NCBI RefSeq assembly: GCF_030852425.1
Contig: NZ_NSDM01000001.1
Span: 930,001 to 994,000, forward strand
From: Saccharothrix longispora
GTDB lineage: Bacteria; Actinomycetota; Actinomycetes; Mycobacteriales; Pseudonocardiaceae
Length of the DNA: 64,000 bases
Reading direction: 5' to 3'
The position numbers and the translations under genes are program-made. Within the stretch, counting starts at the first letter, position 1. Every line of letters begins with the position of its first letter. Positions 16,130 to 38,042 of this stretch are shown one piece after another. The notes under the pieces are model-generated. The model did not search any database. It saw only the letters and a program-made list of their open reading frames with translations, and was not told where the DNA came from.

Positions 16130-16804
16130 TCAGCGAGCGCGGCGCGCCAGGCGCTCCGGGTCCAGGATCAGCACGCTCTTGCCCTCCAACCGCAGCCACC
16201 CGCGGTGGGCGAAGTCGGCCAGGGCCTTGTTCACCGTCTCGCGCGACGCGCCCACGAACTGGGCGATCTCCTCCTGCGTCAGGTCGTGGGTGACCCTCAG
16301 CAGACCGGCCTCCTGGCTGCCGAAGCGCTGCGCGAGCTGCAACAGCGCCTTCGCCACGCGGCCGGGCACGTCGGTGAAGATCAGGTCGGCCAGCATGGAA
16401 TTCGTCCGGCGCAGCCTGCGGGCCAGGGCACGCAGCAGCTGCTCGGCGATCTCCGGCCGGTTGGTGATCCACTGCCGCAGCGCGGGGCGGTCCATGCTCA
16501 CCGCGCGCACCTCGGTCACCGTCGTGGCGGTGGACGTGCGGGGGCCCGGGTCGAAGATCGACAGCTCGCCGAACATGTCGGACGGGCCGAAGATCCCCAA
16601 CAGGTTCTCCCGACCGTCCGGCGACTTGCGGCCGATCTTCACCTTGCCGGATTGGATGATGTAGAGCCGGTCGCCCGGCTCGCCCTCCGCGAAGATCACG
16701 TGGCCACGCGGGAATTCAACGGACTCCAGCGTCTGCGCCAGTGCCTCCGCTGCCGCCGGTTCAACCCCCTGGAAGATGCCCGCGCGGGCCAGGGTCTCGT
16801 CCAC
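16130..16804 (-). CDS. crp: Crp/Fnr-family cAMP-responsive regulator
   Basis: The product is 224 residues, the same length as mycobacterial Crp (Rv3676), and very close in sequence. Cyclic-nucleotide pocket: [18 protein letters not shown]. Dimer helix: [23 protein letters not shown]-binding helix-turn-helix: [20 protein letters not shown]. Orthologue also of corynebacterial GlxR, a global regulator. The frame extends to 16834, but GTG 16804 follows AGGAGGGA at good spacing and matches the family start, so it was chosen. Followed by a strong terminator; monocistronic. Confidence 0.95.
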
Positions 16805-16970
16805 CTCGTCCCTCCTGTCGAGACGCGGCGGCATGGTCGAGCGCGTTCCGCCTTCTGGCGGATAAGCGCCTTGCCGCCGATCACTGGGTGCAGTCTAAGG
16901 GCTGTGCGGGAGATCGCCTTCCGGCGCGCCGCCGCACGGTGCCCCGCGACTCGGGGCGGACAGCCCAGAA

Positions 16971-33382: not shown

Positions 33383-35121
33383 CAGGCCAGGCCGTGGCCG
33401 AGCGGGTACGGCGTGGGTCCCGGCACGTCCACCGGGAGCCTGCCCGCCGGACGCACCTCCCCGGTGATGACGCGGGCCAGCGACTCCATCGACACCGCGC
33501 TGTAGGAGTAGGTGGCGAGCCACGTCGGCGCGGCGGTGTGCGCCACGTCGTACGGGTTCTGCGCGGCCACCGCGACCACCGGCTTGCCGGTCGCGAGCAG
33601 CCTGGTCAGCAGGGTCTGCTGGGCGGGCCGGGCCGACAGGCCGTTGGTCAGCACGACCACGACGTCCGCGGCCGCCGCCGCCTGCACGGCCGCCGCGACC
33701 TGGGCCTCGGTCGGCGCGGTGCCGGTCGGCAGGGCCGTGCCGCCGAGGACGCCCGCGAGGGTGCGCGTCGTCGTCTCGCCCCACCCGGTGACCAGTGCGG
33801 CGGTCGGCCTCGCGGCCAGCGGCAGCACGCCCGCGTCGTTGCGCACGGCGGTGATCGTGCGGTCGGTGATGCGGCGCGCGTCGGCCAGGTGCTCCGGTGC
33901 GCCGACGACCGCCCCGACCCCCTCCACGTCCACGCGCGGGCTGGTCAGCATGCCCCGCAGCAGCTTCATCCGCAGCACCCGCAGCACGCTCTGGTCGATC
34001 CGCCGCTCGGTCAGCTCGCCGCCGCGCACGGCCGCGACCACGCTGTCGACCGCCAGTCGGAGGTCCACCGGCATCAACAGCTGGTCCACGCCCGCCTTGA
34101 GGGCCAGGACGGGGATCTCGGCGTCGCCGTGCAGCTGCCGCACGCCCGCCATGGCCAGCGAGTCGGTGATGACCACGCCGTCGTAGTCGAGTTCCTCGCG
34201 CAGCAGGTCCAGCGTCGGCTTGGACAGCGTGGCCGGCTCACCGGAGGGGTCGATCCGCGGCATCGTGATGTGCGCGGTCATGATCGAGTCGATGCCCGCC
34301 GCGATGGCCGCCTCGAACGGTGGCGCGTCCAGCTCCCGCCACTGCTCGGCGGTGCGGTCGACGGTCGGCAGGCTCGTGTGGCTGTCCTCGGCGGTGTCGC
34401 CGTGGCCGGGGAAGTGCTTGGCGGTGGCGCTCACCGAGTCCCGCCCGAGGGGCCTGCCCTGGTAGCCGCGCACCTGGGCGGCGGTCAGCTCGGCGGCCAG
34501 CGCGGGGTCGCTGGAGTACGAGCGGACGCCGATCACCGGGTTCGCCGGGTTCGAGTTGACGTCCGCGTCCGGTGCGAAGTTCTGGTTGACGCCCATCGCG
34601 CGCAGTTCGCGGGCGGTGATGCGGGCGGCGCGCTCGGCGTCCTGGGCGCTGCGGCCCGCGCCGAGCGCCATGTTGCCGGGGAACTGGGTGGCCGGGGCGC
34701 CGATGCGGGTGACGATGCCCATCTCCTGGTCGGTGGAGATGGCCAGCGGGATGCGGCTCGCGCGCTGGAGCCCGTTGGACAGGGTCGCGATCTGGCGCGG
34801 GGTGTCGATGTTGTCGTAGCTGGAGTTGTTGAAGTAGACGACCCCGCCCGGCTGGAACTTCGCCACCACCTCGGCCGGGGAGGCCACGCCGAAGTCGCGC
34901 AGGTTGCCGGGGTGCTGCTCGTCCGGCGCCTGGCCGTGCACGTAGGTGACGAACAGCTGCCCCACCTTCTGCTCCAGCGTCATGCCGCGGGCCAGGGCGG
35001 CGGCCTGCTGCCGCACCTGGTCGACGACCCGCGCCTGGTCGGGCGCGGCGACGGCGAGCGGAGGCGGTGCGGCGGTGGACGCCGCGACCACGGCGACGGC
35101 GGCGACGAGCGGACGGAGCAC
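33379..35121 (-). CDS. nagZ: GH3 beta-N-acetylglucosaminidase, secreted
   Basis: The product is 580 residues. A signal peptide (PLVAAVAVVAASTAAPPPLAVA) is followed by a GH3 domain with the NagZ loop signature KHFPGHGDTAEDSHTSL (catalytic His) and the nucleophile Asp in VVITDSLAMAGV. The GH3 C-terminal domain (LVTGWGETTTRTLAGVL; VVVVLTNGL) is present, so this is the two-domain Bacillus YbbD type rather than the short cytoplasmic NagZ. GTG 35121 follows GGGGAGG at five bases. First gene of the nagZ-namZ-amiE-type operon. Confidence 0.94.
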   Translation of the reverse strand: MLRPLVAAVAVVAASTAAPPPLAVAAPDQARVVDQVRQQAAALARGMTLEQKVGQLFVTYVHGQAPDEQHPGNLRDFGVASPAEVVAKFQPGGVVYFNNSSYDNIDTPRQIATLSNGLQRASRIPLAISTDQEMGIVTRIGAPATQFPGNMALGAGRSAQDAERAARITARELRAMGVNQNFAPDADVNSNPANPVIGVRSYSSDPALAAELTAAQVRGYQGRPLGRDSVSATAKHFPGHGDTAEDSHTSLPTVDRTAEQWRELDAPPFEAAIAAGIDSIMTAHITMPRIDPSGEPATLSKPTLDLLREELDYDGVVITDSLAMAGVRQLHGDAEIPVLALKAGVDQLLMPVDLRLAVDSVVAAVRGGELTERRIDQSVLRVLRMKLLRGMLTSPRVDVEGVGAVVGAPEHLADARRITDRTITAVRNDAGVLPLAARPTAALVTGWGETTTRTLAGVLGGTALPTGTAPTEAQVAAAVQAAAAADVVVVLTNGLSARPAQQTLLTRLLATGKPVVAVAAQNPYDVAHTAAPTWLATYSYSAVSMESLARVITGEVRPAGRLPVDVPGPTPYPLGHGLAW

Positions 35122-35301
35122 GGCGGCCTCCCCACATGAAAACTTCCACCAGAAGGTGGTCGTAATCGGCAAGTTACCCACGTCACAGGGGCGGGTCAAC
35201 GGGTTGCGCTGCGTGGGAATTGTCCTGGGGGCCACCGACAGGGGACCGGCTGCGACCGGTCGTCCGATCGGGTGTCTTTCCGATTCGGGCCCGAACATGA
35301 C
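35122..35301. other. nagZ upstream region
   Basis: About 180 bp between nagZ and the ncRNA terminator. It should contain the nagZ promoter on the minus strand. A CCACC-AGAA-GGTGG inverted repeat at 35146-35159 is a possible regulator site, 25 bp upstream of the start codon. No gene seen. Confidence 0.5.
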
Positions 35302-35328
35302 GTTGGGCCCCTCGTCGAGGGGCCCAAC
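35302..35328 (-). terminator. Terminator of the predicted ncRNA
   Basis: Perfect 13-bp inverted repeat around one central base (35302-35314 and 35316-35328). Confidence 0.8.
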
Positions 35329-35537
35329 ATCGCGGCGCGGACTGTCGAGTTACCAAGCGCGCAACTCGTGTCGTACCGACCTGGCCTCGGCGTCCGGCGT
35401 CCCGGTACGCAGGCCCTAGACGACAAGCCTCCCGCGGCGTGCCGCGCGTGGGTGTCTCGAAGTCCGCGCACGGAGCCCGGTCGGGGTGGACGCCGCTTCT
35501 CCTCCGCTTCGTCCCTGGCCGACCCGAGGTCCGCACC
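35302..35537 (-). ncRNA. Predicted Ms1-like small RNA
   Basis: No protein gene fits this interval, yet it has a complete transcription unit on the minus strand. A sigma-A type promoter (TTGCTG-N17-TACAAA) places the start near 35536. A terminator hairpin lies at 35302-35328. The predicted 5' end GGUGCGGAC (35537-35529) can pair with GUCCGCGCC at 35342-35334, closing a long-range helix that encloses about 185 nt. It lies downstream of and co-directional with the HAD-IB phosphatase, as mycobacterial Ms1/MTS2823 does relative to Rv3661. Ms1 binds RNA polymerase core. Homology is inferred from position and architecture, not from alignment. Confidence 0.65.
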
Positions 35538-35541
35538 TCCA

Positions 35542-35570
35542 TTTGTAGTACGTGTCGCGCGTCACAGCAA
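35542..35570 (-). promoter_or_regulatory. Sigma-A type promoter of the predicted ncRNA
   Basis: On the minus strand the -35 TTGCTG (35570-35565) and -10 TACAAA (35547-35542) are separated by 17 bases. This is one of the best vegetative promoter matches I found in the window. It is 117 bp past the HAD-IB stop codon and has no open reading frame behind it. Confidence 0.7.
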
Positions 35571-35686
35571 GTGCTCGATGGGGTGGACCGGTCAAGCGAC
35601 GTTCCGTAGCGGATCCGGTGCTGTCACAGCGTTTCGGGACGTTCGCGGGTGTCGGTACCGCTGTCCGGGGGGAGGGGCCGGGTGGC

Positions 35687-36499
35687 TCAGCTCCGGCGAC
35701 GGCGGCGCAGCCCGTACCAGGCGGCGCCCGCGACCGTCGCCGCGCCGAGGCCGATGGCCGTGACGGCGACCGTCGCGCCCGAGGGGCGGGGGATGCGGGC
35801 GTGCAGCGACACCGGGTCGGAGAACGTCAGCACCGGCCAGCCGCGCCGTTCGGCGACCCGGCGCAGCGCGCGGTCCGGGTTGACGGCGGTCGGGTGGCCG
35901 ACGGCCTCCAGCAGCGGCAGGTCGCTGATCGAGTCCGAGTAGGCGTGGCAGCGGTCCAGGTCGTAGTGGTGCTCGGCGGCGAGCTGCTTCACGGCGACGG
36001 CCTTGTTCTCGCCCGCGCAGTAGAAGTCCACGTCGCCCGAGTACCGGCCGGCCGAGACGACCATGCGCGTGCCCACGCTGTGCGTCGCGCCGACCATGGT
36101 GGCGATGGGCGCCACCAGCTCCGCGCCGGACGCGGACACCACGACCACGTCGTGGCCCTCGTCCTTGTGCTCGGAGATGAGCTGCGTCGCCTCCTTGTAG
36201 ACCAGGGGGTCGACGATGTCGTGCAGCGTCTCCTCGACGATCGAGCGCACCTGCTCGACGTCCCACCCCTGGCAGAGCGCGGTGATGTGCGAGCGCATCC
36301 GGTCCATCTGGTCGTCGTCGGCGCCGGCCAGCATGAAGACGAACTGCGCGTAGGCGCTCTTGAGCACCGCACGCCGGTTGATGAGGCCCTCTTGGAAGAA
36401 CGGCCGGCTGAACGCCAGCGTGCTCGACTTGGCGATGACGGTCTTGTCCAGGTCGAAGAACGCGGCGACGCGGCTGCCCTCGGTGGCGTGCTCGGTCAC
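35687..36499 (-). CDS. HAD-IB family phosphatase with C-terminal membrane tail
   Basis: The product is 270 residues. Catalytic FFDLDKTVI (nucleophile and acid Asp near 16-18), motif II Ser in VVSASGAEL, Lys in AGENKAVAV, and acidic YSDSISDLPLLEAVG. SerB-related HAD-IB branch. A C-terminal membrane helix (about 242-262) ending in RRRRRS is a tail anchor, which predicts membrane attachment. Corresponds to Rv3661 in M. tuberculosis. Substrate unknown; SCO-type homologues sit beside ssd. The predicted ncRNA lies downstream on the same strand. Confidence 0.9.
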   Translation of the reverse strand: MTEHATEGSRVAAFFDLDKTVIAKSSTLAFSRPFFQEGLINRRAVLKSAYAQFVFMLAGADDDQMDRMRSHITALCQGWDVEQVRSIVEETLHDIVDPLVYKEATQLISEHKDEGHDVVVVSASGAELVAPIATMVGATHSVGTRMVVSAGRYSGDVDFYCAGENKAVAVKQLAAEHHYDLDRCHAYSDSISDLPLLEAVGHPTAVNPDRALRRVAERRGWPVLTFSDPVSLHARIPRPSGATVAVTAIGLGAATVAGAAWYGLRRRRRS

Positions 36500-36640
36500 G
36501 GCTCCAGCTTAGGGCGGTCGGCGGAGCGGACCGGCGCGAGCCGTTCGCCACTTTACGAACTGGATGTGCCGTCGGACGAAATTTCCCCTTCCCTCTGGCG
36601 GAAGGCACGCACGACCCTGGCCCGTGGGGATACAGTAGTG
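36500..36640. other. Left part of HAD-ssd divergent intergenic region
   Basis: No gene is seen. It includes a TACAGT hexamer at 36631-36636, just ahead of the hairpin cluster, that could be a -10 element. A good -35 partner is not evident. Confidence 0.4.
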
Positions 36641-36728
36641 CCGTCCGGCTCGACCGGACGGGTTCAGTCCGACCCCCCGGGACTGAACCGATGACGACCC
36701 CCGTCCCTCCCCCCTGGCGGGGGTCGTC
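36641..36728 (+). ncRNA. Three consecutive hairpins, candidate small RNA or leader
   Basis: Hairpin 1: CCGTCCGG (36641-36648) with CCGGACGG (36654-36661). Hairpin 2: GGTTCAGTCC (36661-36670) with GGACTGAACC (36680-36689), loop of Cs. Hairpin 3: GACGACCCCCG (36693-36703) with CGGGGGTCGTC (36718-36728). The three abut one another, the last looking like a terminator. Located between divergent HAD-IB and ssd genes. The strand cannot be decided from symmetry; plus is suggested by the upstream TACAGT. Confidence 0.4.
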
Positions 36729-36992
36729 CCATGTCCGGGGTCGGTTCGCCCCCGTGGTCCCGCCGCGTTCCCGCGGCCGTTCCCGCCGTCGCCGCCACCG
36801 TTCCGCGTGTCACCTGGACGTGTGCCGCGCCGACGCGTGTCGCACTCCGCCGCCCGGTTCCCGGCCCTCCGGAGTTGTCCACAGGCTGTCAAGTTGTCCA
36901 CATGTCGATCATGAATCGTTGTGTCGTTCCTCACCGCTCGCGACCGTGGACGCCGGAGATCCGCTCCGGGTGGGTCGAGCTGAGGAGGAACG
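36729..36992. other. ssd upstream region
   Basis: About 260 bp with no supported gene. It should carry the promoter of the ssd-tad operon and ends in GAGGAGGAACG, the ssd ribosome-binding site. Confidence 0.5.
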
Positions 36993-38042
36993 GTGGAACG
37001 ACCAGTGGTCCTGGTGTCCGACGCGGTTCTGCTGGACGAGGTCCTGCACGCCGCGGCGGTGGTCGGGTGCGAGGTGGAGCGCGTCGCCGACGCGCCCGCC
37101 CTGCGCGCCCGCTGGCACGACTCGCCGGTGGTGGTGCTGGACGAGGTGTCGGCGGGTGCGGCGGGGGAACTGCCCCGCCGGCCGGGGGTGCACGTGGTGG
37201 CCACCGGCCCGCCGGGCGAGGCGACGTGGCGGCGGGCCGTCGCGCTGGGCGCGGAGCAGGTGCTGGAGCTGCCCGCCGGTCAGGCCGCGCTGCGGGCCGC
37301 GTTCGCCGACGCCCTCGACGGCCCGTCCGGTGACGGCCGGGTCCTCGCGGTCCTGGGCGCACGCGGCGGTGCGGGCGCGTCGGTGCTGGCGGTGGCCGTG
37401 GGCCAGGCCGTGCTGTCGTCCGGCGGCCACGGCCTGCTGGTCGACTGCGACCCGCTCGGCGGCGGCCTCGACCTGACGCTCGGCGCCGAGCGCCAGGAGG
37501 GCCTGCGGTGGCCCACCCTGCACCTCAAGGGCGGTCGCGTCCCGGCGGCGGCGCTCCGCTCGGCGCTGCCCGGCCGCACCGGCAAGCGCGGCAGCCTGAC
37601 CGTGCTGTCCTGCGGCCGGACGGGGCCGGGGCCCGAACCCGCCGCCGTGGTGGCGGTCGTCGAGGCGGGCAGGCGCGCGGGCGGCACCGTCGTGTGCGAC
37701 GTCCCGCGCCAGCTCACCGCCGCCGCGTGCGCGGCGCTCGACCGGGCCGACCTGGCGGTCATGGTGGTGCCCGCCGACGTCAAGGCGTGTATGGCCGCGC
37801 AGCCCCTGGTCGACCAGGTGGCCGACCGGGGCGTTCGGCTGCGGGCCGTCGTGCGCGGCCCCTCCCCCGGCGGTCTGACCAGCGACGAGGTGGCCGAAGC
37901 GGTCGACCTCCCGCTGCTCACCAGCATGCGCCCGGAACGCCGCCTGGCCGCGGCGCTCGACCAGGGCCGCTTCCCCGGCACCACGCGCGGCCCGCTGGCC
38001 AAGGCCGCCCGGGAAGTCCTGGCGGCCCTCAATGACCACTGA
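36993..38042 (+). CDS. ssd: Septum site-determining protein (CpaE/TadZ-like)
   Basis: The product is 349 residues. A short N-terminal receiver-like part (VLVSDAVLLDEVLHAAAVVG) precedes a MinD/ParA-type ATPase fold with altered P-loop LGARGGAGASVLAVAVGQ (no canonical Lys-Thr), LLVDCDPLGGGLDLTLG, and VVCDVPRQLTAAAC. Matches Ssd (Rv3660c), which affects septation in mycobacteria, and TadZ, which localises pilus assembly. Strong ribosome-binding site GAGGAGGAACG before GTG 36993. Heads the tad gene run. Confidence 0.92.
   Translation: MERPVVLVSDAVLLDEVLHAAAVVGCEVERVADAPALRARWHDSPVVVLDEVSAGAAGELPRRPGVHVVATGPPGEATWRRAVALGAEQVLELPAGQAALRAAFADALDGPSGDGRVLAVLGARGGAGASVLAVAVGQAVLSSGGHGLLVDCDPLGGGLDLTLGAERQEGLRWPTLHLKGGRVPAAALRSALPGRTGKRGSLTVLSCGRTGPGPEPAAVVAVVEAGRRAGGTVVCDVPRQLTAAACAALDRADLAVMVVPADVKACMAAQPLVDQVADRGVRLRAVVRGPSPGGLTSDEVAEAVDLPLLTSMRPERRLAAALDQGRFPGTTRGPLAKAAREVLAALNDH

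Follow-up and report, generated by a model that had tools for sequence, protein, structure and literature searches.

The Ms1 RNAs of Mycobacterium smegmatis and M. tuberculosis (in the latter known as MTS2823) and scr3559 (Str13) of Streptomyces coelicolor are the closest described relatives of the RNA analyzed here. For M. smegmatis, the sections of the 2014 study drawn on here describe a promoter resembling the sigma-A type, a terminator at 304 nt from the 5' end, a bubble that is important for binding of core RNA polymerase and a rise of about 130-fold in stationary phase, while leaving open what regulates Ms1 and reporting LexA at the M. tuberculosis locus (PMC4191392). The S. coelicolor RNA is about 230 nt long, and according to the portions of the 2022 paper used here its locus was formerly annotated as 6S RNA (ssrS) and its product was immunoprecipitated with core polymerase, neither with HrdB nor with the HrdB holoenzyme (PMC9130861). 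In the relevant part of a RIP-seq study, scr3559 was enriched about 1250-fold on polymerase and more weakly, about 45-fold, on HrdB in stationary phase (PMC11077062). Ms1 candidates have been listed for 824 species, and Saccharothrix, Actinosynnema, Umezawaea and Lentzea appear in Table 4 of that list (PMC9130861). Since this prediction was published at the genus level in 2022, Ms1 in Saccharothrix is not new as such, and the gene described below agrees with the published candidates in genus and synteny; the cited portions of the 2022 paper contain a genus-only listing, with no structure, promoter or covariation for Saccharothrix.

In the window (the whole stretch of 64,000 nucleotides analyzed here) the unit on the minus strand at about 35570-35295 is, with a probability that we put at roughly 0.94, an Ms1 gene, i.e. 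a stand-alone gene with a sigma-A-type promoter, a structured RNA and a hairpin end, whose product would act as a reserve for core polymerase. Homology, architecture, covariation, promoter sequence, synteny and occurrence as a single copy are observed for this gene. A permissive Rfam search of positions 35100-36800 aligned all 304 positions of RF02566 (Ms1) to 35534-35294 on the minus strand with 46.0 bits and an E value of 6e-10, and this match was the only one in the host genome at E 0.01. Because 46.0 bits is below the RF02566 gathering cut-off of 162 bits, we file the locus under the biological Ms1 class and not as a member at the Rfam threshold; Ms1 was absent from the Rfam listing of the whole window at gathering cut-offs. 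The gene was placed at 35294..35536 (minus strand) from the RF02566 match and the family-built model R1 described below, with a predicted start at 35534-35536, a predicted finish at about 35294-35299 and hence a probable length of about 235-243 nt. R1 scored 146.5 bits at this place and 22.5 bits at the next-best place in the host genome. An Ms1-type RNA in the gap between nagZ and the HAD gene, as proposed in a sequence-only reading of this DNA, was thus borne out by a covariance search with the Ms1 model, albeit under its cut-off, by the recovery of sister-family Ms1 with R1, by the covarying architecture, by synteny and by the prediction already published for Saccharothrix.

The RNA could alternatively be 6S RNA proper, which binds the sigma-70/sigma-A holoenzyme and whose release depends on synthesis of a product RNA. 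Both RNAs have the same general shape, a long hairpin with a bubble, 6S likewise binds polymerase, and the stationary-phase habit of the relatives as well as the former ssrS annotation and the HrdB signal of about 45-fold in S. coelicolor would fit; however, no 6S family was listed up to E 10 for 35100-36800, where Ms1 reached 6e-10, and in the cited work the S. coelicolor homologue was immunoprecipitated with core and not with HrdB or its holoenzyme, which makes 6S RNA a highly improbable identity for this locus.

The distribution of Ms1 was analyzed in 150 genomes of the family, the host's included, in 14 control genomes and in a class sample of 197 genomes that again included the host. RF02566 matched 118 of the 150 family genomes at E 0.01 or better and none of the 14 controls, and the gathering cut-off was reached in none of the 150, so that it misses the whole family. 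Ninety match places from the 118 matched genomes were fetched as loci L023-L112; five of these (L046, L049, L072, L082 and L094) were not located by the motif finder and were omitted, leaving 85 loci plus the window. In the class sample RF02566 matches at E 0.001 were found in 16 genomes, 14 of them in the sister family f2, and the nine genomes above the cut-off all belonged to one genus of this sister family, which we take from the origin of the RF02566 model to be the mycobacteria. R1 was built on the core (35471-35334 of the window) of 71 loci from other genera of the family, its alignment comprising 71 of 73 rows after omission of L089 and L109. At E 0.001 it found 60 of the 197 class genomes as compared to 16 for Rfam, missing G267 and G288, which Rfam finds. 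R1 matched 13 of the 14 sister-family Ms1 loci with 43-74 bits (L136 was missed) and all 25 genomes of the window's genus, with one match apiece. All 19 named actinobacterial HAD loci were matched with 24-161 bits, the low end being the three Streptomyces loci among them (24-30 bits, E 0.0001-0.003), and there was no match at the single myxobacterial HAD locus. Of the 32 family genomes lacking an Rfam match, 20 were retested and R1 detected Ms1 in 18.

In the two examined genomes of genus g42 (G042 and G075) neither model found Ms1 and the best HAD relatives were only 35% identical; this genus seems to lack both the HAD orthologue and Ms1. Two other family genomes, G122 and G002, had second copies (L113:8001-8248 and L115:8001-8261, respectively) that scored 112 and 96 bits with RF02566 versus 66 and 58 bits for the ordinary copies, and 82 and 90 bits with R1 versus 112 and 118 bits. 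No HAD match was present in the 16 and 10 kb fetched around them, and a nicotinate phosphoribosyltransferase gene is located at a distance of about 1.6 kb from the copy in G122; the two copies are possible Ms1 paralogues. Second RF02566 matches in G107 and G109 were rejected as false positives that consist of gene ends and ordinary terminators and are not listed by R1. Ms1 was not found on mobile elements: at the sensitivity of the search used, neither the 72,556 plasmid records nor the 50,697 phage records contained a match to the window's Ms1, and 18 viral contigs in which one core pattern was present scored no more than 18.7 bits with R1. In G350, a genome of the same species, two differences from the window fell within the RNA (35538-35302) and more on both flanks.

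The gene order around Ms1 corresponded to that of described Ms1 loci. Upstream on the same strand lies a HAD-IB phosphatase gene of the Rv3661/SCO3558 type (35687..36499, minus strand; TIGR01490, PF12710), whose protein was 83-91% identical to ten Saccharothrix records (nine at 89-91%) and 87% identical to Actinosynnema pretiosum, which points to Saccharothrix or a close relative as the source of the window. A nagZ-type gene, also on the minus strand, borders the gap on the other side. Beyond the HAD gene follow a 6C RNA (36658..36732, plus strand; RF01066, 74.3 bits versus a cut-off of 47) and the gene for the septum site-determining protein Ssd (36993..38042, plus strand; TIGR03815), giving the order Ssd (+), 6C (+), HAD (-), Ms1 (-). 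The window's Ssd gene is of the Rv3660c type, Rv3660c being presumably the Ssd of M. tuberculosis, and B11 of that species is an RNA that we take to be 6C RNA. According to the part of the literature used here, M. tuberculosis carries MTS2823 in forward orientation between Rv3661 and Rv3662c and B11 (MTS2822) in reverse orientation between Rv3660c and Rv3661. The 6C RNA of the window, between the Ssd and HAD genes and upstream of and divergent from HAD, occupies the place matching that of B11. The window thus resembles the MTS2823 locus in the position of Ms1 after the HAD gene and in the further small RNA and gene beyond it, and the SCO3558-adjoining Ms1 of S. coelicolor in its HAD neighbor.

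This arrangement was widespread in the family. Among the loci fetched by their Ms1 match, 80 of 85 had a co-directional HAD gene upstream, the HAD tblastn match ending at a median distance of about 170 bases from the Ms1 RNA; the five without it comprised two second copies (L023 and L025), two loci at contig ends (L050 and L069) and L107, which had no HAD match in its about 1.2 kb of upstream sequence. By the printed coordinates, HAD was upstream and co-directional in all 14 sister-family Ms1 loci, and in the reverse test Ms1 was found in 19 of 20 named loci fetched by HAD. The earlier suggestion that the neighbor is the Rv3661-type phosphatase with Ms1 downstream and co-directional agrees with the TIGR01490 match, the gene order and the family synteny. 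Nine R1 matches in family f18 (L141, L143, L144, L145, L149, L151, L153, L160 and L162) had no HAD match within about 1.5 kb. Ms1 of this family may reside in another neighborhood, and a synteny-based search would therefore miss such copies.

The window's Ms1 appears to have its own sigma-A-like promoter, as judged from its hexamers. The sequence-only reading had described TTGCTG-N17-TACAAA, and both hexamers are present on the minus strand (-35 at 35565..35570, -10 at 35542..35547) and recur in family and sister-family loci. A TTG hexamer located 16-18 nt upstream of a TACAAA-like hexamer was called in 81 of 86 family rows by a script that required TTG, the five rows without a called promoter all belonging to genus g8; in the sister family the same hexamers precede Ms1, with TTGCTG or TTGATG as the -35 in 14 of 14 loci. 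A generic sigma-70 scan listed no promoter at the window's Ms1 hexamers. The predicted start near 35536 held up as well, since both the promoter spacing and an alignment with the +1 mapped in M. smegmatis, which is an A, gave 35534-35536.

At the other end, the proposed perfect 13-bp terminator hairpin stood in part: the 13-base inverted repeat is real, and because its center is a single base, the strong hairpin that it forms has 12 pairs and a loop of 3 nt (35302..35328, minus strand). The hairpin is followed by a poor U-run (GTCATGTTCGG), it was not listed in a terminator scan of the window, and its assignment draws on folding and on congeners with T-runs. Almost no U-run was seen at 35296-35301 (minus strand) in the window and the genome of the same species, while 20 of 21 congeners read had TTT or longer; an inverted repeat is visible 3' of the RNA in the congeners displayed. 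Two minus-strand ORFs overlap the Ms1 interval. A protein-coding reading was dismissed, in line with the earlier statement that no protein frame fits, because the differences between interval lengths in congeners (237, 241, 240 and 239) are not divisible by three and many aligned rows lack the ATG at 35542.

Since the U-run is poor, read-through past the Ms1 hairpin is possible, and nagZ and HAD are both encoded on the Ms1 strand; the RNA might therefore belong to the mRNA of nagZ or HAD, as a fragment of its leader or 3' UTR. Against such a fragment, which we consider extremely unlikely, speak the promoter calls (81 of 86 family rows) and the inverted repeat 3' of the RNA in the congeners, the covariation of the RNA as a unit and the fact that its relatives are mapped independent transcripts. 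For the stand-alone Ms1 gene, transcription would start from the sigma-A-type promoter at 35534-35536 and yield an RNA of about 235-243 nt ending at the hairpin 35328-35302. This agrees with the original estimate of about 236 nt and is shorter than the 304 nt of M. smegmatis Ms1; the difference from mycobacterial Ms1 of about 60 nt is mainly due to one apical stretch (63 model positions versus 10 bases). The length is similar to the about 230 nt of the core-binding S. coelicolor RNA, although the primary sequence of Streptomyces Ms1 has diverged.

Folding of the 235-nt RNA gave a z score of -3.7 against dinucleotide shuffles, none of 200 shuffles reaching its stability. Covariation was counted in an alignment (A1) of 95 family sequences including the window, which represent 95 of 100 distinct rows after omission of the five non-family loci L016-L020, five duplicates having been dropped beforehand. 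The consensus structure of 65 pairs was paired in 94.5% of cells across the 95 sequences and showed two-sided changes in 36 pairs and 449 cells, the shuffles averaging 21.0 and 137.4 (neither number was reached in any of 500), figures that are somewhat favored because the structure was derived, in a separate alignment, from the same loci that were later counted. When partners were slid by 1-3 columns, consensus pairing fell to 31-43%. The structure consists of a 5' hairpin domain (35470..35534, minus strand; helices 1-3, arms 35534-35506 and 35470-35496), with two-sided changes in 16 of 23 pairs, followed by a long closed main domain (35335..35469, minus strand; R1 core 35471-35334), and RF02566 has the same architecture. 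The helix closing the main domain (35469-35462/35335-35342) was 97.6% paired, all seven of its seven pairs were changed on both sides (1 of 500 shuffles reached seven) and its 64 two-sided cells compared to 13.9 in shuffles (0 of 500 reached 64). It encloses a near-invariant core, ACCCACG...GCTTGGT. In the consensus structure the window displays the features of the Ms1 class, namely a long hairpin, a conserved central bubble with adjacent helices and short hairpins near the ends. The window's RNA is thus like M. smegmatis Ms1 and MTS2823 in architecture, sigma-A-like promoter and conserved core, and unlike mycobacterial Ms1 in its score under the Rfam cut-off, its weak U-run and the degraded right half of its promoter palindrome.

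A different closing helix had been suggested before, with nine pairs between the 5' end and the 3' arm (35537-35529/35342-35334). These strands are complementary, yet compensatory changes in relatives were few: four pairs and 14 cells were changed on both sides versus 3.2 and 7.0 in shuffles (reached by 186 and 52 of 500, respectively), and the outermost pair was broken in 51 and one inner pair in 44 of the 95 sequences. Although 83.7% of cells pair as compared to 82.5% in shuffles and the covariation score is 0.174 versus 0.153 (each reached by 1 of 500), relatedness alone can raise both measures; the helix also outdid its slid versions (24-50% paired). We count it as unsupported because its 3' arm pairs far better with 35469-35462, where the two-sided changes are found, and thus rejected it as the closing helix of Ms1. 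The 5' end and the 35469-35462 segment share GUGCG(CG)GAC, and therefore either can pair with the 3' arm. This invites the thought of a switch tied to polymerase release, in which the nine-pair helix displaces the covarying closing helix: GUCCGCGC is complementary to both the 5' GUGCGGAC and the internal GUGCGCGGAC, and the fraction of cells able to pair was, as stated, matched in a single shuffle. With the two-sided cells within reach of 52 shuffles, two of nine pairs broken in about half of the sequences and the 5' strand accounted for by the 5' hairpin, such a switch is very unlikely.

For the Ms1 reading with the covarying closing helix, the RNA would fold into the 5' hairpin domain and the long closed main domain, whose core ACCCACG...GCTTGGT and bubble would bind sigma-free RNA polymerase core. 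Judging from M. smegmatis and S. coelicolor, its level may rise when growth slows, and the RNA may keep core polymerase in reserve and contribute to setting the amount of polymerase; transcript ends, polymerase binding, stationary-phase expression and an effect on the amount of polymerase in the window's organism are all expected from these relatives. The covarying structure fixes the main-domain closing helix, which is needed for testing the polymerase-binding element.

While the identification of Ms1 itself is ordinary in a genus for which it was already predicted, an inverted repeat in its promoter is the most useful new lead. Of the 81 called family promoters, which represent 34 genera, 44 had GTGA-N6-TCAC exactly and 25 more had it with one mismatch at a fixed place between -35 and -10 (69 of 81 with at most one); of the remainder, four had two mismatches and eight had four to six. 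A member with at most one mismatch was present in 30 of the 34 genera and an exact one in 18, whereas other half-site spacings (2-5 and 7-10) occurred in 0-7 of the 81 promoters, and the N6 comprised 50 distinct sextets. Genus-weighted information in promoters with a 17-nt spacer was 1.6-1.8 bits at GTG, 1.2 bits at A and 0.3-1.1 bits across N6, and in the right half-site only 0.55 bits at T and 1.65-1.96 bits at CAC, then low until the -10. The repeat was exact in nine and within one mismatch in ten of the 14 sister-family loci, the other four having TCTA or GCTA for TCAC. In the window a degraded remnant, GTGA-N6-ACAC, is found at 35552..35565, and none of 22 rows of the window's genus, the window included, was exact (15 with one mismatch, two with two, five with four or five); the motif script read 22 of 25 rows and missed L210, L214 and L223, which carry Ms1. 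The three Streptomyces loci show no GTGA-N6-TCAC, an absence outside the order that is weakly tested because a good promoter was called in only two of 13 loci (L155 and L156).

The CRP/GlxR consensus is TGTGA-N6-TCACA, and the Ms1 promoter repeat resembles such an operator in sequence. The window's own site, TGTGA-N6-ACACG, has two mismatches and is no evidence by itself, because 16 places in the window have at most two mismatches and this number is within chance (12 expected). A CRP-type cAMP receptor protein, a candidate regulator of the Ms1 promoter, is encoded at 16130..16834 (minus strand); its best PDB matches were the Crp/Fnr-family regulators 3i54 and 3d0s (E about 1e-121), and it was the best HTH_Crp_2 match of the host genome. 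We tentatively propose, as a possibility to which we give clearly less than even odds, that across the order, in the window's family and its sister family, GTGA-N6-TCAC is an Ms1 operator bound by a CRP/GlxR-type cAMP receptor protein which keeps Ms1 low during growth, and that this control is being lost or altered in the window's genus. With the repeat occupying the spacer from -35 to -10, repression of Ms1 by a bound dimer would be expected: cAMP-CRP on this operator would block polymerase in growing cells, and Ms1 would rise in stationary phase once cAMP-CRP leaves. Such CRP-family gating in the order, relaxed or lost in the window's genus, is less certain than the polymerase-core role, and the repeat could also be the site of a different dimeric regulator. 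In the parts of an M. tuberculosis CRP ChIP-seq report considered here, sites were described upstream of three sRNAs, ncRv13660c among them, and its main text as consulted does not mention Rv3661, Rv3662 or ncRv13661. No link between CRP and Ms1 was found among the top-ranked papers of the mainly open literature searched, which included portions of PMC12709188 and PMC3207917. If the proposal is true, the operator would make the amount of free polymerase depend on cAMP. For the 2014 question of what regulates Ms1 expression, the promoter footprint suggests an answer that can be put to the test.

A separate element, TTGACC...TGTGACGTG(G/A)GTAACTT, was seen at 35160-35210 (minus strand) upstream of the nagZ-type gene; judged by eye, it is kept in Saccharothrix and Umezawaea and partly in Lentzea, and its sequence looks like a nagZ promoter with a GTGAC motif of its own.
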